A stretch of 33,889 nt of DNA from NCBI GenBank assembly GCA_030620155.1, contig JAUXFF010000008.1:1-33889 (forward strand). Direction: 5' to 3'. Positions within the stretch are counted from its first letter, which is position 1, and each line of letters starts with the position of its first letter. The translations under genes and the position numbers were made by a program. The DNA comes from Candidatus Cloacimonadota bacterium (lineage in GTDB: Bacteria > Cloacimonadota > Cloacimonadia > Cloacimonadales > TCS61). This document shows positions 4,143 to 14,229 of this stretch, piece after piece. The notes under the pieces were generated by a model, which saw nothing but the letters and a program-made list of their open reading frames with translations, ran no database searches and was not told the origin of the DNA.

Positions 4143-5129
4143 TTATTTTATTTCACTAACTAGTTTTGTTACAACATCTCTGGATTTTAATCCTTCAGCT
4201 TCAGCAGCGAAAGAAATTAATACACGATGTTGTAACACAATACTGGCGATACTTTCTACATCCTCTATTGAAGGAGTGAGCCGATTATGAAGAGCAGCTC
4301 TGGTTTTTGCAGCCAAAATCAGATATTGTGAAGCTCTTGGTCCAGCTCCCCAATTGACCCATTTCTTTATAAAATCAGGTGCTTCTTTGTAAACTGGTCT
4401 TGTCGACCTGGCTAATTTTACTGCAAAATCTAAAACATGTTCACTGACAGGAATTTGTAAAACAGCCTTTTGAATTTCAATTATTTCTTTTGCTGTTAAT
4501 ATTGCATCGATTACTGTTGATTGTGAAGTTGTAGTTTGTTTTACAATTTCTTTTTCCTCTTCATAATTGGGATAATCGATATAGATATTAAACATAAATC
4601 TATCCAACTGCGCCTCTGGAAGAGGATATGTACCTTCTTGTTCAATTGGGTTTTGTGTGGCAAAAACCAGAAATGGTTGATCCAGTTCAAATGTTTTATT
4701 CCCTGAAGTAACTTGATATTCCTGCATAGCTTGTAAAAGGGCAGATTGTGTTTTCGGTGGTGTCCTGTTAATTTCATCAGCTAAAATAATATTAGCGAAA
4801 ATAGGACCTTTTAAATATTCAAAATATCTCTTACCATCAGATTTATTTTCTGCTAAAATATCTGTACCTGTGATATCAGACGGCATTAAATCGGGGGTAA
4901 ATTGTATTCTGCTGAATTTCATATTCAATACCTTAGCCATAGTCGAAATCAGTAATGTTTTAGCAAGTCCGGGAACTCCTTCAAGAAGACAATGACCATT
5001 GGCAAAAAGAGCTATAAGAAATTCCTCAATAACCTTTTCCTGTCCTACTATTACTTTTCCAATTTCTTTTAAAATTTTCTCTTTAGCTTCAGTTAATTCT
5101 TCTAAAACAACAATATTTTCTTTAACCAT
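4143..5129 (-). CDS. MoxR-family AAA+ ATPase
   Basis: MoxR ATPases are AAA+ chaperone-like proteins that usually activate von Willebrand factor A-domain partners. This 328-residue protein has Walker A GVPGLAKT (residues 51-58), Walker B IILADE (about 114-119) followed by the MoxR signature NRTPPKTQSALLQAMQE, sensor segment FATQNP, and arginine-finger region PEAQLDRFMF. Length and motif order match the family. The ATG has a ribosome-binding site (AGGGG about 6 bases upstream). The usual partners, a DUF58 protein and VWA-domain membrane proteins, are not next to it: the flanking genes are the redox operon and the lipid operon, both on the same strand but separated by 135 and 397 bases. It therefore seems to be a lone gene with partners elsewhere. 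Confidence 0.93.
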   Translation of the reverse strand: MVKENIVVLEELTEAKEKILKEIGKVIVGQEKVIEEFLIALFANGHCLLEGVPGLAKTLLISTMAKVLNMKFSRIQFTPDLMPSDITGTDILAENKSDGKRYFEYLKGPIFANIILADEINRTPPKTQSALLQAMQEYQVTSGNKTFELDQPFLVFATQNPIEQEGTYPLPEAQLDRFMFNIYIDYPNYEEEKEIVKQTTTSQSTVIDAILTAKEIIEIQKAVLQIPVSEHVLDFAVKLARSTRPVYKEAPDFIKKWVNWGAGPRASQYLILAAKTRAALHNRLTPSIEDVESIASIVLQHRVLISFAAEAEGLKSRDVVTKLVSEIK

Positions 5130-5526
5130 ATTTTCCCCTATAGTAAATTTTTATAAGATATATTATTCATTCAATCCTAATAAAAAAAGGATTGGGGTTC
5201 AATCCCTCAAAATTTGGATTATTTGTCAAAGGTTACTTTATTAAAACACATGTTTTCATAAAAAATGTTTGTCTGTTCTTAATTGTAATATGTAAATTCA
5301 AGGTAATTACATTCTATTACAGATTTAATAATTTACGATATAATTATAATTGGACCTTGTAGGAACTGAACAACAGTCTGGTAATCACATTTTAAAAAAC
5401 TATAAAAATAGCATATTGAAACCAGTTTTTGGGGAACAAATTAGCTTCAATTGATTTAATAAAGAAAATAAAATCATTCTATCCTAGATGTTTATCAATA
5501 ATGGTATTTCAAAATATTTAGAAGTT
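5130..5526. other. Long spacer between moxR and the lipid operon
   Basis: This 397-base AT-rich gap has no credible open reading frame on either strand. It holds the hairpin structure at 5172-5205 and, on the minus strand near 5224, a TTGACA-like hexamer that may serve moxR. I see no clear T-tailed terminator for the lipid operon just after 5527. Confidence 0.5.
5172..5205 (-). terminator. Terminator or attenuator in the moxR leader
   Basis: On the minus strand GGATTG and CAATCC form a 6-bp hairpin with a 5-nt loop, followed directly by seven T, the shape of an intrinsic terminator. A second GGATTG (5172-5177) lies just beyond the T-tract and could compete for the same CAATCC arm. It is 43 bases before the moxR start, so it may end read-through from the lipid operon or attenuate moxR. 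Confidence 0.5.
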
Positions 5527-6516
5527 TTATTTTTTTAATTTCAAAATATCTGTAAATCTGATTTTTAAAGCAAATAAAGAAAACATACCAACAAAAAATA
5601 TAAGTACTGTTGTCAATAAATGAGAAAAAGTCACAGCAGCACTTGTCAGATTTTCATTTACACCGAGTGCGAATGAAAAAATCAGAACCCACATGAATTG
5701 ATTGGATCCGATCTGAGCAGGTGGAGTTGGTAGTATATAAGTAAGGTTCATTAAGGTATAACCGAAAAGAATTTTAAAATAGCTTATTTGAGCTCCAAAA
5801 GCTTTAAATAGTACCCATATATAAATTGCTTCAGAAAAAACAGCTAAAAGAGTGATCAATGTTGCCAGGATAGTTTCAGGGAATCTGTTCTTCATAATGG
5901 TCATACCGTTTACGAAATTCAGTATGAAACCACTTAATTTTTCCCTGAATTTTACAGGGAATATTTTTAAAAAGAAGTTCAGGATATTCACTGCTTTCTC
6001 TTTATGGTTAGTAGAAAAGAACAGAAACCCAAGAAATAACATAAAAATAAGGAATAATAATAGAATAACAGCGTATAAATAGTAGTTACTTCTAATTGAT
6101 ATCAGGGGGATAAGTACAAGAATTATGACTATGGGGAACAAGTCAGCAAGTTTATCTATAAAAATGGAAGGTAGGCTTTGTGAAATGGGAATTTTGTGCT
6201 TGTTTTTCAGAATTATTGATTTTGCTAACTCTCCAGCCCTGACAGGAATAAGGTAATTAATAACTAAACCGGTCATGAATATAGAATAACTTTCTATTAC
6301 TTTCATTTCATAGATAGGTTTGAGGATTATTTTCCAGCGAAGACTTCTAAGGAAATAGGCCAGAAGATAAAAAACAGAAAACACAAGAACCAGCTTTAAA
6401 TTGAAATTTTTTAAATAATTGATAAATTCTTGCCAATCTATTATTTTGAGCCAGATTATAAGAAAAATAATTCCAAGGAATATACTGAGAATTAAATTTA
6501 ATTTTTTATTTTTCAT
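5527..6516 (-). CDS. Integral membrane protein, LPG-synthase TM / flippase-like family
   Basis: The product (329 residues from the ATG at 6516) is a polytopic inner-membrane protein with about eight hydrophobic segments and belongs to the lysylphosphatidylglycerol synthase TM family (AglD/MprF N-terminal type). Family marks are RSLRWKIIL near residue 60, NYLIPVRAGELAKSI near residue 90, and PTPPAQIGSNQF in the C-terminal third. Members move or help move lipid-linked substrates. A TTG start at 6534 is possible, but the ATG at 6516 has an AAGGG site six bases upstream and overlaps the methyltransferase end by only 11 bases. It is the last gene of the nine-gene lipid operon, so transport of that operon's product is a reasonable guess. 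Substrate is not determinable here. Confidence 0.85.
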   Translation of the reverse strand: MKNKKLNLILSIFLGIIFLIIWLKIIDWQEFINYLKNFNLKLVLVFSVFYLLAYFLRSLRWKIILKPIYEMKVIESYSIFMTGLVINYLIPVRAGELAKSIILKNKHKIPISQSLPSIFIDKLADLFPIVIILVLIPLISIRSNYYLYAVILLLFLIFMLFLGFLFFSTNHKEKAVNILNFFLKIFPVKFREKLSGFILNFVNGMTIMKNRFPETILATLITLLAVFSEAIYIWVLFKAFGAQISYFKILFGYTLMNLTYILPTPPAQIGSNQFMWVLIFSFALGVNENLTSAAVTFSHLLTTVLIFFVGMFSLFALKIRFTDILKLKK

Positions 6517-7363
6517 ATTTCCCTTCAGGAACAAAAATAAAAAATTTATGATGTGCCCAGAAATATTTCATGTAAGAGGGTAAAATTTTCTCAAGCCACA
6601 TATATTTCAACATTTTTTCATCAAAATGTATATCTCTTTCGGAATAATAATCTAAAACAGAAATAAAATGTGTATTTTGTCGAGAAGAACCGGGAATAAG
6701 AAATTTCAGACCGAACATTTTAAAGAATTCTTCTTTGCTCATACCGATATCAGGCCAGGGTGGGCAATCAAAAAAACCTTTATCGAGCAACCTCCAACTG
6801 TTTTCTCCCATCTTTCCTATGAAATATTTAGGGATTATAAAATTTTCTCTTAAAAGGTCTTTCAATTTCAATTTGGAAAGATATTTCTGTGAAAGGTAAC
6901 CCAATCCACTGCGATTCGGCACACAGAACATGATTACTTTTCGGATTACTCTTGTAAGTTCTTTCAAAAAAAGATCCAAATCTTCAAGAAACCAGAGGGA
7001 AGAATAGTTCCATGCAAAATCAATTTCCTTGTCAGAAAATGGAAGATGTTCAAGTTTCTCTTGATAAATTATGTTGGCTTTCAGATTCATTTCTTTCCAA
7101 ACTGATTTTATAAGATTAACTCTTATCCTGTGATTGTCGATTACATGAACATCCAGATTCTGTTTAGCCAACCACATTGAATTAATCCCAGAAATTCCAG
7201 TGAAACCAAAAGAAGGAACTTCAACACAGTTTTGAATACTGAAATCTTTAACCAATTCAGCAAGTTTCAGATTTATAACTATTCTTTCGTAACTGGAACC
7301 CAGTCCTTCATTCCGGTCTTCCATGAAGTATCTTTTCCAAGTCTCTATAATTGGTATAGCCAT
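6506..7363 (-). CDS. SAM-dependent methyltransferase, class I (divergent)
   Basis: This 285-residue protein has a Rossmann-type layout of a type-11 methyltransferase: motif I region CVEVPSFGFTGISG (about residues 46-59), an acidic residue after the second strand in VHVIDNHRIRVNLIK, LPFSDKEIDFAWNYSSLWFLEDLDLFLKE as motif II/III, and VIMFCVPNRSGLGY. Motif I is loosened compared with the usual E/DxGxGxG, so cofactor binding is likely but not certain. The C-terminal 120 residues are rich in aromatic and basic residues and match no family I can name. It starts six bases after the preceding SDR and overlaps the flippase-like gene. From the operon it may methylate a lipid or a polar head group; that is inference. 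Confidence 0.75.
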   Translation of the reverse strand: MAIPIIETWKRYFMEDRNEGLGSSYERIVINLKLAELVKDFSIQNCVEVPSFGFTGISGINSMWLAKQNLDVHVIDNHRIRVNLIKSVWKEMNLKANIIYQEKLEHLPFSDKEIDFAWNYSSLWFLEDLDLFLKELTRVIRKVIMFCVPNRSGLGYLSQKYLSKLKLKDLLRENFIIPKYFIGKMGENSWRLLDKGFFDCPPWPDIGMSKEEFFKMFGLKFLIPGSSRQNTHFISVLDYYSERDIHFDEKMLKYMWLEKILPSYMKYFWAHHKFFIFVPEGKYEK

Positions 7364-7369
7364 AATATA

Positions 7370-8374
7370 TCAAATCAGATTATTTTCTCTGAACCATTTA
7401 ATAACTTTTGTAGCACCTTGTTTCAGGTCTGTTTCCGGATGATAACCGATAGCCTTATCAAGATCCTGATGAATGTTACTGAATTTGCGATCAATACTCA
7501 AGTCTTTAATTCTTCTTCTGTTTAATGGAGGAGATTTATTAATTATTTTGCATAGTATCTCAACAGGGGTAATCAAAAATTGTCCAAACCAGACCGGGAT
7601 TTTAAGAGAGCCACCTTTTCTTCCAAGGATTTCTGAAATCGTTTTTACAAAATCATTGATAGTGAATTTCTCATTATTAGTACAAATAAATGTTCCGTTA
7701 ACCTTAGATCCCATAAATCGAAGGCAAATCATTAGAAGATCATCAAGATAGATTAGAGGGGACATTATATTGTTCCCGTTACCGAAAATTGGGAAAAGCC
7801 CTTTCTTGATCAATCTTACAGAACCAAGAAAATCAGAGCGTTTATCACCAATACCGTAAATCAAGCTGGGTCGTAAAATTACAACTGAGATATTATGGTT
7901 GGAAGAAATTTCATTCAGTTTTATTTCACTTTGTTTTTTTGATTCTCCATATAATGTATCAGGATTTAGAGGTGAATAATTCGTAACAGTTTTTTCTCTC
8001 TGAAAGCCCATACAGGCCAAACTGCTGAAATAAATGAATTTTTTCAAATTTGGATTTTTCTCTTTCACAGCAAGGTAGATATTACAAGTTGCATCTACAT
8101 TTGTATCAATCATTTTATTCATTGCTCGTTGAGAAACTGCAGAAAAATCTACATGGGCTGCTAAATGAAATACAATATCGAGATTATTGGGAATTATCTT
8201 AAGGCTTTCTTTTTGTGTTAAATCTGCTTCCAATAGAGATACCGGTAAAGTTTTTAAATATTTAACATTACTAGATTTTCGTATAATACAAATAACATTA
8301 TGGTTTTCGGTCACAAGACGTTGGACCAAAGCGCTTCCGATGAAGCCGGTTGCACCAGTTACCAGAATATTCAT
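7370..8374 (-). CDS. Extended SDR, NAD(P)-dependent epimerase/dehydratase
   Basis: An extended short-chain dehydrogenase of about 334 residues. The N-terminal MNILVTGATGFIGSAL carries the intact TGxxGxxG nucleotide-binding motif. FHLAAHVDFS, FSSLACMG (catalytic Ser) and YGESK (catalytic Tyr142 and Lys146) follow in standard order, then the LRPSLIYG motif. A GTG at 8380 is an alternative start, but the ATG at 8374 is better spaced from AAGGTG. Such enzymes oxidise, reduce or epimerise nucleotide sugars or, in some branches, isoprenoid and sterol alcohols. It follows the other SDR by nine bases and precedes the methyltransferase. Its substrate cannot be assigned; sugar or prenyl lipid is equally possible from context. 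Confidence 0.88.
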   Translation of the reverse strand: MNILVTGATGFIGSALVQRLVTENHNVICIIRKSSNVKYLKTLPVSLLEADLTQKESLKIIPNNLDIVFHLAAHVDFSAVSQRAMNKMIDTNVDATCNIYLAVKEKNPNLKKFIYFSSLACMGFQREKTVTNYSPLNPDTLYGESKKQSEIKLNEISSNHNISVVILRPSLIYGIGDKRSDFLGSVRLIKKGLFPIFGNGNNIMSPLIYLDDLLMICLRFMGSKVNGTFICTNNEKFTINDFVKTISEILGRKGGSLKIPVWFGQFLITPVEILCKIINKSPPLNRRRIKDLSIDRKFSNIHQDLDKAIGYHPETDLKQGATKVIKWFRENNLI

Positions 8375-8383
8375 TTCCACACC

Positions 8384-9358
8384 TTATTTTTTAAGAGATT
8401 CAAGACAATGTTTCCAAATAGTTAAAGTATCAACTTGTTTTGAAGTCAACCGGATCCCTTGAGTTTCTGTAGAAAAATATTTACTATTCATAAGGAAATT
8501 CATTATTTCAATAGATTTATTCAGTTTTAAGAAGTGAGCAAGTTTGTAATAAATTTCCATTTTCTTTCTACCTAAAGTTTTATGAAGAGGGAGGTTCCGA
8601 TTCAAATATATTTGATAAATTAAATCCACAAGTTCTTGTATTTTTACTGGTTGTGGATCAAGAGCATTAATGATAGTACCGGGTTTAATTTCAGAATCTA
8701 TCGCTTTTAATATTGTTTGAATAAAAAGATCAATATGTGTCATTTGAATAAAAACGTCTTCTTTTGTTATAAAGAGAAGGTGTTTTCTAAGGAGTTTTAA
8801 TAAGTCATTAATAATCCCGGGTAAACCATTTCCATACATATAAGATGTTCTGATGATAACAGAGTTAAGTCCTTTCAGTACATAGTTTTGAATCATGACT
8901 TCAGCTCTATTTTTTGTGAGATGATAGAAACTGTCATTTACACGTTCTGATTGTTCATCCAAAGGAAGTTTAATCGGTCTAACTCCAAATACGTCTATTG
9001 TGGAAAAATATATGAATTTAGATTGATATTCCAAAGAATGATTAATGAATTGTTCGGTAGCGTTTATATTAAAATCAAACATTCTCTTTTTACTGAATTT
9101 CCTGGTGGAGTAATCTCGAAGTTCAGAGTTATGTACTATGATATCGAAATGGTTATTACTAAGAAAATTTTTAAGAGATTCTATCTTTGCTAAATCCAGT
9201 TTGATGATTTTTTTATTTTCTTCCAGGTGTTCTTTGTTAAATTCAGGAGTATTGGATCCTATAATAATGGTTAAGTTATATTTTTTTTTAATTATATCAT
9301 TAAATAATCTTAAATCTACCTGATTATTCAGTCCTGTAATTAGAAGATTTTTACTCAT
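8384..9358 (-). CDS. Atypical extended SDR with altered nucleotide-binding loop
   Basis: A 324-residue SDR-fold protein in the same operon as a more canonical paralogue. The first strand is present (NLLITGL) but the glycine-rich loop reads GLNNQVD rather than GxxGxxG. Catalytic-site features are kept: IVHNSELRDYS for the NNAG-like region, YFSTIDVFG with Ser119 or Thr120, YHLTK with Tyr145 and Lys149, and IRTSYMYGNG. Thus the active-site Tyr and Lys are intact while dinucleotide binding may differ. It starts 29 bases after the PHP gene. It could be a catalytic enzyme with unusual cofactor binding or a partner subunit of the second SDR. No substrate is assigned. Confidence 0.8.
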   Translation of the reverse strand: MSKNLLITGLNNQVDLRLFNDIIKKKYNLTIIIGSNTPEFNKEHLEENKKIIKLDLAKIESLKNFLSNNHFDIIVHNSELRDYSTRKFSKKRMFDFNINATEQFINHSLEYQSKFIYFSTIDVFGVRPIKLPLDEQSERVNDSFYHLTKNRAEVMIQNYVLKGLNSVIIRTSYMYGNGLPGIINDLLKLLRKHLLFITKEDVFIQMTHIDLFIQTILKAIDSEIKPGTIINALDPQPVKIQELVDLIYQIYLNRNLPLHKTLGRKKMEIYYKLAHFLKLNKSIEIMNFLMNSKYFSTETQGIRLTSKQVDTLTIWKHCLESLKK

Positions 9359-9387
9359 TTTTATTTTTTCATTAAATTATTGATTTT

Positions 9388-10107
9388 TTAAAAAAGTTGA
9401 ATATTTTTATTTTTTAAGAGTTTATCAGGATTTATGACACATAACAATTTAGCGAAATCTTTCCCCAGATTTTTCTTGATAACTTTATAAGCCAGAGGTA
9501 GTAAATATTCATCATTATTACAATGAGTGTCTGAAGCCAGAAAATGAACATGACCTCGGGAAAGAAGCTTCCAAGCGGTTTTCGATACTCGTTTTCCATA
9601 TAAACCAATCAAGCTGCCTGCATTAATTTGAAAGTAGACATTTCGATAGATTAGATCTTCAGCAAGTGTTGGATTTTGAATGATATCAGGGTAACGTTCA
9701 GGGTGAGCAAGAATAGGTTTATAATTATTTTTAACTAATTTATACAGTATCTCTAAAAGATTTTTCGGGAAACCGCTTAAATTGGTTTCAACCAAAATGT
9801 AATCTGAGTTATTGATATTGAAATTTTCACTCTCTATATCTTCAAAAATATTTTCATCAAGATAAACTTCCGCTCCTTTGTATAATGTGACTGGAATTTT
9901 CTGTTTTTCAACTTCATTTTGTAAATAATTAAATTTTGATTCAATGACATCCGTATGATTATTATAGACATTTCTTATAAAGTGAGGTGTTAAGACAATG
10001 TCTGTAACTCCTGCATTTATCATTTTCCTGATTTCTGTTATGGAAGTTGATAAATTATCAGCACCATCATCACATGCAGGTAAAATATGTGTATGAATAT
10101 CAATCAT
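9388..10107 (-). CDS. PHP-domain phosphatase, CpsB/YwqE-like
   Basis: This 239-residue protein is a polymerase-and-histidinol-phosphatase (PHP) family metal-dependent phosphoesterase of the CpsB/YwqE type. Metal ligands are visible in MIDIHTHILPACDDGAD (His5, His7), LTPHF, GAEVYLD, LAHPERY and SDTHC, in the order expected for the family. CpsB proteins dephosphorylate tyrosine kinases in capsule synthesis, but no such kinase gene or polysaccharide polymerase is nearby. The ATG overlaps the stop of the GGGP synthase gene in an ATGA arrangement, so it is translationally coupled to lipid synthesis. A phosphatase acting on a lipid phosphate in this operon is an open possibility. The family is certain, the substrate is not. 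Confidence 0.88.
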   Translation of the reverse strand: MIDIHTHILPACDDGADNLSTSITEIRKMINAGVTDIVLTPHFIRNVYNNHTDVIESKFNYLQNEVEKQKIPVTLYKGAEVYLDENIFEDIESENFNINNSDYILVETNLSGFPKNLLEILYKLVKNNYKPILAHPERYPDIIQNPTLAEDLIYRNVYFQINAGSLIGLYGKRVSKTAWKLLSRGHVHFLASDTHCNNDEYLLPLAYKVIKKNLGKDFAKLLCVINPDKLLKNKNIQLF

Positions 10108-10853
10108 TTTCGTTTTATATTATGAATTGAGTTTGCAAATTCCCTGATTAGTTTGGAGTCCAGATTTTTTTCAAGGATGTTTCCGGTTACTATAAAATCA
10201 GCACCGGCAGCAGCTTTTTGTGCAGCTATTTTTGGGTTTGTAATCCCTCCACCAAGTATAACAGGCAATGATATGTTTTTTTTAATTTCCCGGATCATAT
10301 CATCTGGAACCGGATATTCAGCACCACTACCGGCATCAAGATAAATAATTTTCATTCCCAGATATTGACTGGCTAAAGCATGCGCAACTGCTATATCATT
10401 TTTTGTTCTGGGAATTGGGAAACTGCTACTCATAAAATTTACAGAAGTATTTTGACCTGAGTCAATAAGCATATATGCGGTTCCAATGGCTTCCAGGTTG
10501 TATTGTTTTATTTGAGGAGCTGCTCGAACTTGTTCGCCTATTAACATTTGAGGATTACGGCTGGAAACCACAGAAAGAAGCAATATTGCATCTGCATATT
10601 TCGATACAAAGTTGAATATTCCTGGAAAAATTATAACAGGGATGTTTACATTTCCTTTGATGACTTTCAAATTAGATTCAAAATTATTTGTCAGCATAAG
10701 ACTACCGCCAACAAGAAGACCATCAGCACCATTTTCTTCACATGTTTTGGCATATTGAACAGCTTGTTTTTCATCAATTTTATCAGGGTCTATCAAGCAT
10801 AAATAATTGGCTCTTTCTTTAGCCATTTTTAAAAGTTTATTGTATGTTTTCAT
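10104..10853 (-). CDS. Geranylgeranylglyceryl phosphate synthase (group II type)
   Basis: GGGP synthase joins a prenyl diphosphate to sn-glycerol-1-phosphate, the first committed step of archaeal ether-lipid formation; it is a cytoplasmic TIM barrel. The 249-residue length fits the group II branch shared by some archaea and FCB bacteria. Visible phosphate and glycerol-binding motifs are CLIDPDK (residues 19-25), GLLVGGS (45-51), SSRNP (97-101), YLDAGSGAEYPVP (171-183), VILGGGITNP (198-207) and the VTGNILEK loop (222-229). The related PcrB (heptaprenylglyceryl phosphate synthase) differs, and the neighbours support C20 chemistry, but chain length cannot be proved from sequence. It overlaps the UbiA gene by 17 bases and the PHP gene by 4, so all three are coupled. 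No G1P dehydrogenase is in view. Confidence 0.93.
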   Translation of the reverse strand: MKTYNKLLKMAKERANYLCLIDPDKIDEKQAVQYAKTCEENGADGLLVGGSLMLTNNFESNLKVIKGNVNIPVIIFPGIFNFVSKYADAILLLSVVSSRNPQMLIGEQVRAAPQIKQYNLEAIGTAYMLIDSGQNTSVNFMSSSFPIPRTKNDIAVAHALASQYLGMKIIYLDAGSGAEYPVPDDMIREIKKNISLPVILGGGITNPKIAAQKAAAGADFIVTGNILEKNLDSKLIREFANSIHNIKRK

Positions 10854-11676
10854 AATTTCCCATCCATAGAATAATTAATAAAATAAGCATGTCAACTTTC
10901 ATGAGAGAGGATATTTTCAAGAATTTTCCTTTATCATTGGAATGATTTATTAGATAAATTATAAATATTATCAACGGTAACGAAACAAATAAATTCATAA
11001 AAATGAATGTATTCGGATATAAAAATCTTAAGTGGAATAGATAAAAAATAAATAGAACAATGACCAGAGAAGGAATAATGGAGACCAGAACTGTTTTTTT
11101 TCTTCCAAAATGAATTGCAAGTGTATGGGCTCCTGATTTAGAATCTCCTTCAATATCTTCAGCATCTTTGATGAATTCACGTATAAGAGTATAGAGAAAT
11201 GCAAAGATTGCAATAAATAAGCTATTTTTAAAGTTATTATTACATAAACCTCCAAAGATAAAAGTAGAGGCTGCTGCATATGAAACTATTAAATTTCCTG
11301 ATAAAAATCTCATTTTATAGAATTTAGCGTAATAAAACAGTGCTAAACTGTTAAAAATCGCAATAAAAACACAATATACATTTTTGGTTAAGAAACTTAT
11401 TATTATTCCAGTTAAAAATAGTGAAACCGAATAAATGTAGGCTGTTTTAGGATTCATTTTTCCTGATGGTAAAACCCGGTTCGGTTTGTTAATTATATCA
11501 ATAGTTAGGTCAAAAAAGTCGTTCATAATATAACCTGCTCCGGTAATTAGAAAAGCAGAGATAGCTGCATATAAGACAGAATAATTAAATAATGAATTTT
11601 TATAAAAAGCTCCAAAAAAAACGCAAATTACTACAAAGAAGCAATTATAAGGACGAAGAATTTTTAAAAAAGACAC
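10837..11676 (-). CDS. UbiA-family prenyltransferase, probable digeranylgeranylglyceryl phosphate synthase
   Basis: A 279-residue integral membrane prenyltransferase with eight to nine hydrophobic helices. The two Asp-rich motifs are NDFFDLTID (residues 52-60, followed by NKPNRVLPSG) and KDAEDIEGD (171-179). This pair, with the PxRxLPSG tail, resembles archaeal DGGGP synthase, which adds a second geranylgeranyl chain to GGGP. The alternatives are heme, quinone or chlorophyll branch UbiA enzymes, but gene order (prenyl synthase, UbiA, GGGP synthase) favours the ether-lipid role. The start is GTG, five bases after the prenyl synthase stop, with only a weak ribosome-binding site, which suggests reinitiation. 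The 3' end overlaps the GGGP synthase gene by 17 bases. Confidence 0.88.
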   Translation of the reverse strand: MSFLKILRPYNCFFVVICVFFGAFYKNSLFNYSVLYAAISAFLITGAGYIMNDFFDLTIDIINKPNRVLPSGKMNPKTAYIYSVSLFLTGIIISFLTKNVYCVFIAIFNSLALFYYAKFYKMRFLSGNLIVSYAAASTFIFGGLCNNNFKNSLFIAIFAFLYTLIREFIKDAEDIEGDSKSGAHTLAIHFGRKKTVLVSIIPSLVIVLFIFYLFHLRFLYPNTFIFMNLFVSLPLIIFIIYLINHSNDKGKFLKISSLMKVDMLILLIILWMGNYENIQ

Positions 11677-11681
11677 AGGTT

Positions 11682-12569
11682 TTAGGGAAGCCTTTCTTTG
11701 ATCATGTTAACAAATTCAATCAGGATATCATTATTTTTCATATTTTTAATAAGATTATATGAATCTCTTAAAAGTTTTTCAGCAGTTTTTTTGGATTTTT
11801 CCAACCCCATAAGAGCAGAATAAGGAGCCTTGTTGTTCCTTGAATCTTCTCCCGGTTCTCTACCTAAGATATCAAAACTACCGACTTCATCAAGAATATC
11901 ATCAACAATTTGATAAGCCAGGCCTAAATTTAAAGCAAAATTACCAAGGGTAATGGTAACATTTTCTTCTGCTTCATAAATAGTACAGGCTAATTCCATA
12001 GATGCCTGAAGCAGAGCGCCGGTTTTTTTTAAATGAATATATCTGAGTGTGTTAAGATTAATTTTTCTTTTTGCTGATAAAATATCTACAGCTTGTCCTC
12101 CTATCATTCCTCGAGTAGAAACGGCTTGCGTTAATATATCAATACATTTTAAAGCAGTTTTTCTATTTTTAATTTCAGTAAGAATTTCAAAAGCCAAAGT
12201 TATCAAGGCATCACCAGCTAAAATGGCGGTTGCATCTCCGAATTTTATATGACAACTGGGTTTACCTCTTCTTTCACGTGAGTTATCTATAATTGGTAAA
12301 TCATCATGTATCAAAGAAGCCGAATGGATCATTTCCAATGAACATGCAGCGGGAAGTAGTCTTTCAAGTCTATTGATATTTTTCCTACCAATCAGCATTT
12401 CGTAAGTTGCAAAAAAAAGGATCGGACGAAGACGTTTTCCTCCATTAAATACAGCATATCTCATGGCTTCATGGAGTTGCTTTGTTTTTATATCTTCAGC
12501 AGATAAGAATTTATCTAAAGCCGTCTCAACCAAATTCTTTCTTGTATTAAAATATTCTTGAACTAACAA
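11682..12569 (-). CDS. Polyprenyl (probable geranylgeranyl) diphosphate synthase
   Basis: A 295-residue trans-isoprenyl diphosphate synthase, soluble and all-helical. It has GGKRLRP (43-49), the first Asp-rich motif DDLPIID (89-95) with RRGKP after it, GGQAVD (157-162), KKTGALL (181-187) and the second Asp-rich motif VDDILDE (222-228). The fifth residue before the first motif is Ala84; farnesyl synthases of this class carry a bulky Tyr there, and a small residue allows a C20 product. The first motif has the long DDx4D spacing of bacterial IspA/CrtE types. Start is TTG at 12569 behind an AAAGGGG site; there is no nearby ATG in frame. It would supply GGPP to the next two enzymes. Product length is inferred. 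Confidence 0.9.
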   Translation of the reverse strand: MLVQEYFNTRKNLVETALDKFLSAEDIKTKQLHEAMRYAVFNGGKRLRPILFFATYEMLIGRKNINRLERLLPAACSLEMIHSASLIHDDLPIIDNSRERRGKPSCHIKFGDATAILAGDALITLAFEILTEIKNRKTALKCIDILTQAVSTRGMIGGQAVDILSAKRKINLNTLRYIHLKKTGALLQASMELACTIYEAEENVTITLGNFALNLGLAYQIVDDILDEVGSFDILGREPGEDSRNNKAPYSALMGLEKSKKTAEKLLRDSYNLIKNMKNNDILIEFVNMIKERLP

Positions 12570-12582
12570 ATTATCCCCTTTG

Positions 12583-13617
12583 TTATGTTTTTAATGGAAG
12601 TGTAATCTTTCTACCGGTTTTCGCAGATTCATACATTGCAAGGATTAATTCTAACGAGTTTCTTCCACTTCTTCCATCTACTTCGGGTTTTGCATTACCT
12701 TGTAATACATTAACAACATTCTGCAGAAAACCAAGATGACCAAATCCATAAACACTTTTCGGGTTTGTATTACTCTGTTCAATATATTTATCATCATCGT
12801 CATAATCTTTAAATTCCCAGTGTTCTATTTTGTTAACGGCTATTCCTCCAATCTTTACAGATCCAAATTCACCCAGGATAGTAATAGATCCTTCATAATT
12901 ATGTGGATAAGTATTCATAGTAACTTCGATGACACCAATAGCACCATTGAGGAAATGGATAATGCCGGCTCCTTCATCTTCTGTTTCTATTTCATGATTT
13001 ATAGTGGTTGTAAAAGCCATTACAGATTCTGCGGAGCCCATTAACCATTGGATTAAATCAAAATAATGAGAGGCTTGATTCAAAAAGGCTCCCCCATCTA
13101 ATTCCCATGTGCCGCGCCATTTTGCCTGGTCATAATAACTCTGTGGACGAGTCCACCTTACTGTAGCATTAGCACTGAAAAGACGTCCAAATCTATTTTT
13201 AGAAATAGCTCTTTTCAAAAGCTGTATAGGAGGATTAAGACGGTTCTGTTTTACTACAAACAGCTGAACCAGGTTGTCATCACAAGTTTTTATAAGGTCA
13301 TCAGCGGATTTCAAATTTATAGCCATGGGTTTTTCAGTTATTACATGTATTTTCATTTTAGCAGCTTCAATACCCATCTTGGGATGCAAACCACTGGGAG
13401 TACAAATCAAAACAGCGTCTATATCTTCATTTTCAAGCATTTTTTTATAATCAGTGTATACTGATTTTATTTTATATTTCTCACTTGCCTTCACAGCTCT
13501 TGATTTAATAATATCAGCACAGGCTATAATTTTAGAATTTTCTATCTGCTCAATGGCTTGAAAATGTTTTTCAGAAATTCTACCACAACCTATTAATCCA
13601 AATTTTATTAATCTCAT
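12583..13617 (-). CDS. Gfo/Idh/MocA-family dehydrogenase, WlbA/WbpB-like
   Basis: A 344-residue NAD(P)-dependent dehydrogenase. The Rossmann motif is FGLIGCGRISEKH (residues 6-18), EKP at 95-97 holds the catalytic-loop Lys, and the C-terminal dimerisation domain has VRWTRPQSYYDQAKWRGTW (153-171) and GGAFLNQASHYFDL. The last two stretches closely recall WlbA/WbpB, which oxidise UDP-N-acetylglucosaminuronate at C3 in polysaccharide synthesis. I do not see the partner aminotransferase or acetyltransferase of that pathway here. It is the first gene of the operon, 13 bases before the prenyl synthase, behind a TTGACA/TATTTG promoter. A sugar-nucleotide role that supplies a lipid head group is one reading; another is simple co-transcription of unrelated genes. 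Confidence 0.85.
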   Translation of the reverse strand: MRLIKFGLIGCGRISEKHFQAIEQIENSKIIACADIIKSRAVKASEKYKIKSVYTDYKKMLENEDIDAVLICTPSGLHPKMGIEAAKMKIHVITEKPMAINLKSADDLIKTCDDNLVQLFVVKQNRLNPPIQLLKRAISKNRFGRLFSANATVRWTRPQSYYDQAKWRGTWELDGGAFLNQASHYFDLIQWLMGSAESVMAFTTTINHEIETEDEGAGIIHFLNGAIGVIEVTMNTYPHNYEGSITILGEFGSVKIGGIAVNKIEHWEFKDYDDDDKYIEQSNTNPKSVYGFGHLGFLQNVVNVLQGNAKPEVDGRSGRNSLELILAMYESAKTGRKITLPLKT

Positions 13618-13932: not shown

Positions 13933-14229
13933 ATGACAAAAGCAGATTTAGTAAGAAATGTTTCATCAGAAACTGGTATTATACGTAAAGATGTTGCTTT
14001 AGCTGTTGATGCCTTTTTAGAAGCAGTCAAAGATGCAATGAAAGATGGCAAACATATTGAAATAAGAGGATTTGGAACTTTTAAACTTAAAGTTCGTAAA
14101 GAAAGAATTGGAAGAAATCCCAAAACTGAAGAAAAAGTAAAAGTTCCTTCTCGAGTGGTTCCGACTTTTAAATTCTCCAGAGCTTTTAAAGACTCAGTTA
14201 ATGACTCTAATAAGCATAAAATAAAGTAA
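13933..14229 (+). CDS. HU/IHF-family DNA-binding protein
   Basis: A 98-residue nucleoid protein that bends and compacts DNA as a dimer. It has the N-terminal helical dimerisation region (MTKADLVRNVSSETGI), the IEIRGFGTFKLKVRKER strand-turn, and the DNA-binding arm RNPKTEEKVKVPSR, whose Pro inserts into DNA; the arm has EE where many HU proteins have GE. The lysine-rich tail is slightly longer than in E. coli HU. The ATG is preceded by an excellent ribosome-binding site. It is followed 16 bases later by the small basic ribosomal protein gene, and both share a terminator. A palindrome upstream suggests regulation. The HU rather than IHF choice is by general resemblance only. Confidence 0.93.
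   Translation: MTKADLVRNVSSETGIIRKDVALAVDAFLEAVKDAMKDGKHIEIRGFGTFKLKVRKERIGRNPKTEEKVKVPSRVVPTFKFSRAFKDSVNDSNKHKIK

Follow-up and report, generated by a model that had tools for sequence, protein, structure and literature searches.

The window analysed here is a stretch of 33,889 nucleotides from the genome (2.5 Mb, 92.7% complete) of a Candidatus Cloacimonadota bacterium. On the minus strand it carries three consecutive open reading frames that encode, in order, an operonic geranylgeranyl (C20) diphosphate synthase (GGPPS), a DGGGP synthase of the UbiA superfamily (DGGGPS) and a group II GGGP synthase (GGGPS) (Table 1). The first and second reading frames are separated by a 5-bp gap, and the second and third overlap by 17 bp. 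Spacing is also tight in related loci, with median intergenic distances of 6 bp between GGPPS and DGGGPS (at most 150 bp in 36 of 37 loci), -8 bp between DGGGPS and GGGPS (31 of 33) and -4 bp between GGGPS and the adjoining PHP-type phosphatase gene (34 of 34). Because these distances are so short in locus after locus, the linkage of the four genes is not due to chance. A first-pass annotation of this DNA had described three coupled genes in one operon, with which the spacing agrees, but the boundaries it drew (10104-12569) are too narrow. The co-directional run extends upstream to 13617 (Gfo/Idh/MocA oxidoreductase, GFO) and downstream, from PHP to MoxR, to 4143, and it is ended by an HU gene on the opposite strand (13933-14229). 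A sigma-70 promoter scan gave no more matches than were found in shuffles.

Table 1. Genes of the co-directional run and the evidence for their assignment
Gene product	Position	Strand	Basis
Gfo/Idh/MocA oxidoreductase (GFO), first gene of run	12583..13617	-	5' of GGPPS in 27 loci, 25 of them within 150 bp
Geranylgeranyl (C20) diphosphate synthase, operonic paralog	11682..12569	-	PF00348 184 bits; NF045485; motif comparison with housekeeping paralog L124
DGGGP synthase (UbiA superfamily)	10837..11676	-	NF009521 best; 37-ortholog profile; AlphaFold model
Group II GGGP synthase (PcrB/GGGPS family)	10104..10853	-	TIGR01769 over cut-off; 4mm1; 37-ortholog alignment
PHP-type phosphatase (CpsB/YwqE family)	9388..10107	-	PF19567; YwqE 3qy6 E=1.5e-37; adjoins GGGPS in 34/34 loci
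SDR (epimerase/HpnA-like), conserved cluster member	8384..9358	-	Domain/family models, locus comparison
Second SDR, HpnA-like	7370..8380	-	Extra copy; among compared loci common only to G003
SAM methyltransferase, conserved cluster member	6506..7363	-	PF08241; retained where ether genes lost
Flippase-like membrane protein	5527..6534	-	TIGR00374/LPG synthase TM region
MoxR-type AAA ATPase, last gene of conserved cluster	4143..5129	-	Domain models, locus comparison

Enzyme families of the operonic trio

In HMM scans, the GGGPS protein exceeds the cut-offs of the TIGR01769 equivalog (220.6 bits versus 161.55) and of NF003198 (280.5 bits versus 247). Its best solved relative is an archaeal group II enzyme (4mm1 from M. 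thermautotrophicus, E=5.6e-52, full-length alignment), and the GGG at 201-203 is invariant among 37 aligned orthologs. The protein resembles other group II GGGP synthases, among which are Bacteroidetes enzymes, while the source genome differs from those systems in having no G1P dehydrogenase. The heptaprenylglyceryl pathway of Bacillus (PcrB/AraM) uses the same superfamily for the first ether bond; here the enzyme is of group II, the donor would be C20, DGGGPS would add a second chain, and there is no AraM.

The top model for the UbiA protein is the DGGGP-synthase model NF009521 (196.9 bits, under that model's cut-off of 296), and the scores on the ChlG, UbiA_proteo and heme O synthase models are 72, 39 and 31 bits. 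The NDxxDxxxD and KDxxDxxGD motifs are present as NDFFDLTID and KDAEDIEGD, and residues N52, D53, D56, D60, N63, R67, R166, E167, K170, D174 and D178 are invariant in the 37 orthologs. Against the PDB, a profile of these orthologs scores 219.8 bits with 6m31 (M. jannaschii DGGGP synthase), 77 with ChlG and less than 46 with other UbiA structures. The AlphaFold model (pLDDT 95.7) has 6m31/7bpu as its top PDB match (E 5e-14), with other UbiA structures far poorer. The M. jannaschii enzyme and the window protein share the fold, both Asp motifs and a full-length alignment, although identity is 30% and the host of the latter is bacterial. A scan of genome contigs with the UbiA protein recovered a single distant locus only, from Acidobacteria. 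The small margin over the generic model PRK12884 (181 bits), together with the functional breadth of the UbiA superfamily, would suit an enzyme of another kind (for quinones, heme or other aromatic substrates) that lies next to GGGPS by coincidence. Such an identity is highly improbable, given the closeness in fold and sequence to the M. jannaschii enzyme, the invariant catalytic residues, perfect co-occurrence with GGGPS (see below) and the reported activity of the orthologous pair in E. coli (PMC7852524). By model, profile and fold the protein stands apart from quinone and heme prenyltransferases; it is a DGGGPS-type UbiA enzyme, predicted to transfer GGPP to GGGP.

The operonic GGPPS belongs, by family models and solved relatives, to the bacterial short-chain prenyl synthases. 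It has intact aspartate motifs (FARM DDLPIID and SARM DDILD), passes NF045485 in the HMM scan and carries Ala at position -5 (HSASLIHDD). Positions -4 and -5 are established determinants of chain length, and a bulky residue there halts elongation at C15 (PMC7261888). Ala occupies -5 in all 37 operonic copies from genomes with both GGGPS and DGGGPS. Nearly every genome encodes a second, unlinked prenyl synthase, a housekeeping paralog with Tyr or Phe at -5 in each of the 17 copies read, a count that excludes a third, divergent synthase (L142). Classified by these residues, the operonic enzyme is of the C20 type, its Ala being compatible with longer products, and the unlinked paralog is of the C15 type. 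HMM models and PDB relatives thus bear out the initial assignments of a C20 prenyl synthase, a DGGGPS-like UbiA enzyme and a group II GGGPS. The divergent synthase L142 (G009:C143) has similar matches in G027, G028, G031 and G033, and is found in a few genomes of family f1.

Distribution and loss of the GGGPS/DGGGPS pair

The main comparison covered 59 genomes, the source genome and 58 relatives, out of about 100 relatives compared in all; a search of the phylum at a minimum completeness of 85% returned 88 genomes, which belong to one class. Among the 59, GGGPS and DGGGPS are always found together (45 of 45 genomes) or missing together (14 of 14). Two of the latter, G011 and G054, were rejected as losses since contig ends cut their clusters (the contig begins at PHP in G011 and stops after an intact GGPPS in G054), which leaves 12 genomes truly without the pair. 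DGGGPS is present in 13 of 13 genomes from other orders of the class, where the quartet GGPPS-DGGGPS-GGGPS-PHP is kept. The pair is absent from f10, the Cloacimonas-like family, and from f2, and because the outgroup carries it this absence is best read as loss. A quick tree built from five cluster proteins places f3 (G036) inside lineages that have the pair (support 80-90), so that, on the evidence of this tree, f3 represents a further loss. The pathway has by this reading been lost at least twice (in f2 with f10, and in f3), and G046 (f4) may be another loss. In 2 of about 38 f10 genomes (G060:C2 and G066:C128; L168 and L167) there is a UbiA protein, but it is distant, encoded away from the cluster and of another subtype, with PRK12884 as its closest model.

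A geranylgeranyl reductase (GGR) encoded elsewhere in the genome follows the pair. It is found in 44 of the 45 genomes with the pair versus 1 of the 12 truly without it (Fisher p=8e-10, a value that ignores shared ancestry). The exceptions are G006, which has the pair and no detected GGR, and G035, which has GGR and no pair. In the source genome, the search of the remaining contigs for this enzyme found a fragment (G000:C97, 113.7 bits, model positions 1-154) that a contig end truncates and that for this reason scores under the curated threshold; most relatives with the pair encode a full-length GGR.

Across the 40 fetched regions the genes usually follow the order (GFO)-GGPPS-DGGGPS-GGGPS-PHP-SDR-methyltransferase-flippase-MoxR, with the cluster spread over two contigs in G037, G038 and G041. 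In f10 and f2 the order is unchanged except that DGGGPS and GGGPS are missing. The segment from PHP to MoxR (window 4143-10107) is widely conserved with or without ether-lipid genes. Since PHP, SDR, methyltransferase, flippase and MoxR outlast the ether genes in families without the pair, these five have a role of their own and the cluster as a whole is not specific to ether lipids. This retention weakens the notion of PHP, SDR, methyltransferase and flippase as dedicated tailoring enzymes. It also bears on the possibility that the pathway ends at, or diverts from, DGGGP, with PHP removing the phosphate and SDR, methyltransferase and flippase yielding a glycosylated or methylated non-phospholipid diether. 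PHP is the tightest neighbor of GGGPS, the SDR-methyltransferase-flippase genes come next in most loci and CarS (CDP-archaeol synthase) is absent, all of which would fit. Diversion of this kind is nonetheless unlikely: the substrate of genes kept in order without GGGPS and DGGGPS cannot be an ether lipid alone, and PHP is closest to tyrosine phosphatase.

The altered operonic synthase of lineages without the pair

In 46 of 46 operonic GGPPS copies from genomes that have the pair, or in which a contig end hides it, the catalytic Asp motifs are intact, outgroup orders included; where the pair has been lost they are altered in 33 of 33 copies. Genome-level counts such as these correlate with ancestry; at the family level, the contrast is 10 intact versus 3 altered families (p=0.0035). 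The copies of lineages without the pair are still full length. Those of f10 sit in the old ether-lipid operon in 30 of 30 loci examined (L108:6402-7313 and loci L169-L198), and in all 30 the first motif reads DDxxxxM or DDxxxxK (two have NDxxxxM) and the second is EDIxxD-like. The changes in G035, G045 and G036 differ from these. The changes in f3 and in f2/f10 are separate and different, which argues that supplying the ether pair was the main function of the operonic GGPPS. The first-pass annotation took linkage of all three genes as a strong functional hint. This holds insofar as the trio does lie in one operon, but linkage of the prenyl synthase is not purely an ether-lipid matter, as a cluster with an altered synthase survives without GGGPS and DGGGPS.

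The altered synthase is maintained. In a comparison of two species from a single f10 genus, dN and dS are 0.11 and 1.05 for the altered copy and 0.08 and 1.18 for the housekeeping copy. The resulting dN/dS of about 0.1 (one measurable pair) is near that of the housekeeping copy, and nearly all f10 genomes retain the gene, which argues for maintenance. Thus the altered f10 protein, whose structure model in the Cloacimonas type has a pLDDT of 83, is under purifying selection and apparently a pseudoenzyme, probably without prenyl-synthase activity. The chances are about even for the fuller scenario, in which the ancestor of Cloacimonadota made ether lipids, the capacity disappeared on at least two occasions, and the Cloacimonas-type GGPPS thereafter became a non-catalytic protein of prenyl-synthase fold that is kept by purifying selection in the old operon for a second role in envelope lipid or glycan biology. 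In one genome without the pair, a GldA-type glycerol dehydrogenase gene lies directly 5' of the altered prenyl synthase (G055:C21, L107:6266-7357).

A probable archaeal-type ether-lipid pathway and its glycerol phosphate

Villanueva et al. described a Black Sea Cloacimonetes scaffold on which a polyprenyl synthase gene accompanies those for GGGPS and DGGGPS, and showed activity in E. coli (PMC7852524). The locus had been recognized as an instance of a known phenomenon, and the window is confirmed as a case of this published archaeal-type system of FCB bacteria. In the Black Sea Ca. Cloacimonetes NIOZ-UU genomes, as described in that report, GGGPS and DGGGPS are likewise neighbors on a scaffold that also has a polyprenyl synthase, GGR lies elsewhere, egsA/araM and carS are lacking and bacterial lipid genes are present too (PMC7852524). 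The NIOZ-UU3 scaffold carries the marker gene priA with the same genes, as do f13 loci, where PriA is directly 5' of the quartet, whereas the cluster in the window starts after Gfo/Idh and runs into PHP-SDR-methyltransferase-flippase-MoxR. New here are the co-occurrence of the pair, the longer cluster, the split at residue -5 between paralogs, the decay of the Asp motifs and the co-loss of GGR; no account of the last two, as seen where the pair is missing, was found in the main text of PMC7852524.

It is very likely that the trio constitutes a pathway for ether-lipid cores of the archaeal type, passed on by inheritance within Cloacimonadota and completed by an unlinked GGR and, probably, bacterial head-group enzymes. 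The operonic synthase would make C20 GGPP, which GGGPS would couple with glycerol phosphate; attachment of a second chain by the UbiA enzyme would then give unsaturated DGGGP, whose chains GGR would saturate. The second, unlinked prenyl synthase would supply housekeeping C15 FPP, and after loss of the pathway the operonic GGPPS would have lost its catalytic aspartates. Retention or loss of these genes as a unit, together with two further enzymes, is good evidence, at the level of comparative genomics, for one working pathway, and the gain and loss pattern of GGGPS, DGGGPS, the GGPPS active site and GGR provides independent support for it. Enzyme families, catalytic residues, linkage, co-occurrence and co-loss are apparent in the genomes themselves; from these we infer the enzyme activities in the source organism, the use of G1P or G3P and the head-group route. 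Operation of the enzymes in reverse, degrading archaeal lipids scavenged from the environment, has been proposed for FCB bacteria without G1PDH (PMC6431249), but is very unlikely in this case, as synthesis better accounts for the dedicated C20 synthase and for a reductase tracking the pair. Natural mixed archaeal/bacterial membranes in bacteria would bear on the lipid divide and on the sources of archaeal biomarkers in anoxic waters, and the comparison names sister families with and without the pathway.

The pathway differs from the canonical archaeal phospholipid pathway in that neither a G1P dehydrogenase nor CarS occurs in the 59 genomes. For G1P dehydrogenase (EgsA/AraM), NF002022 is over its cut-off in 0 of 59 genomes. 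The strongest matches were rejected as GldA or ErcA-like alcohol dehydrogenases, and the source genome's own match is an ordinary Fe-ADH. The Gfo/Idh oxidoreductase is unsupported as a hidden source of G1P: it is missing 5' of GGPPS in several loci with the pair and present in G050, which has no pair. No sn-glycerol-1-phosphate source was thus found by this search in the source genome or its 58 relatives, and the sn-1-glycerol core first proposed for the products stays a prediction. The absence agrees with the report of Villanueva et al. (PMC7852524) and differs from a study that lists Cloacimonetes with G1PDH orthologs (PMC6431249). It does not refute ether-lipid synthesis, because the whole lineage shares it and the orthologs are functional in E. 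coli in the absence of egsA/araM (PMC7852524). It narrows the G1P problem, since a dehydrogenase missing throughout the lineage is no assembly gap. A core built on G3P, giving archaeol-like lipids of bacterial stereochemistry, is a tentative alternative, somewhat less likely than not. The missing EgsA/AraM and the acceptance of G3P by a Cloacimonetes GGGPS in vitro (PMC7852524) point that way, but the same report describes GGGPS as strongly G1P-selective and finds that G1P is made in E. coli by an unknown route.

The search for CarS found none (PF01864, 0 of 59 genomes), and because of this absence a route by bacterial CdsA/PgsA-type enzymes is proposed as the probable source of the head group. 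The presence of PlsY leads us to expect ester lipids as well. The source genome encodes three acyltransferases of this family (G000:C169:7388-7936, C15:3137-3661 and C39:6509-7048), which are of interest given that PlsY is reported to accept both glycerol-phosphate stereoforms (PMC13400652).
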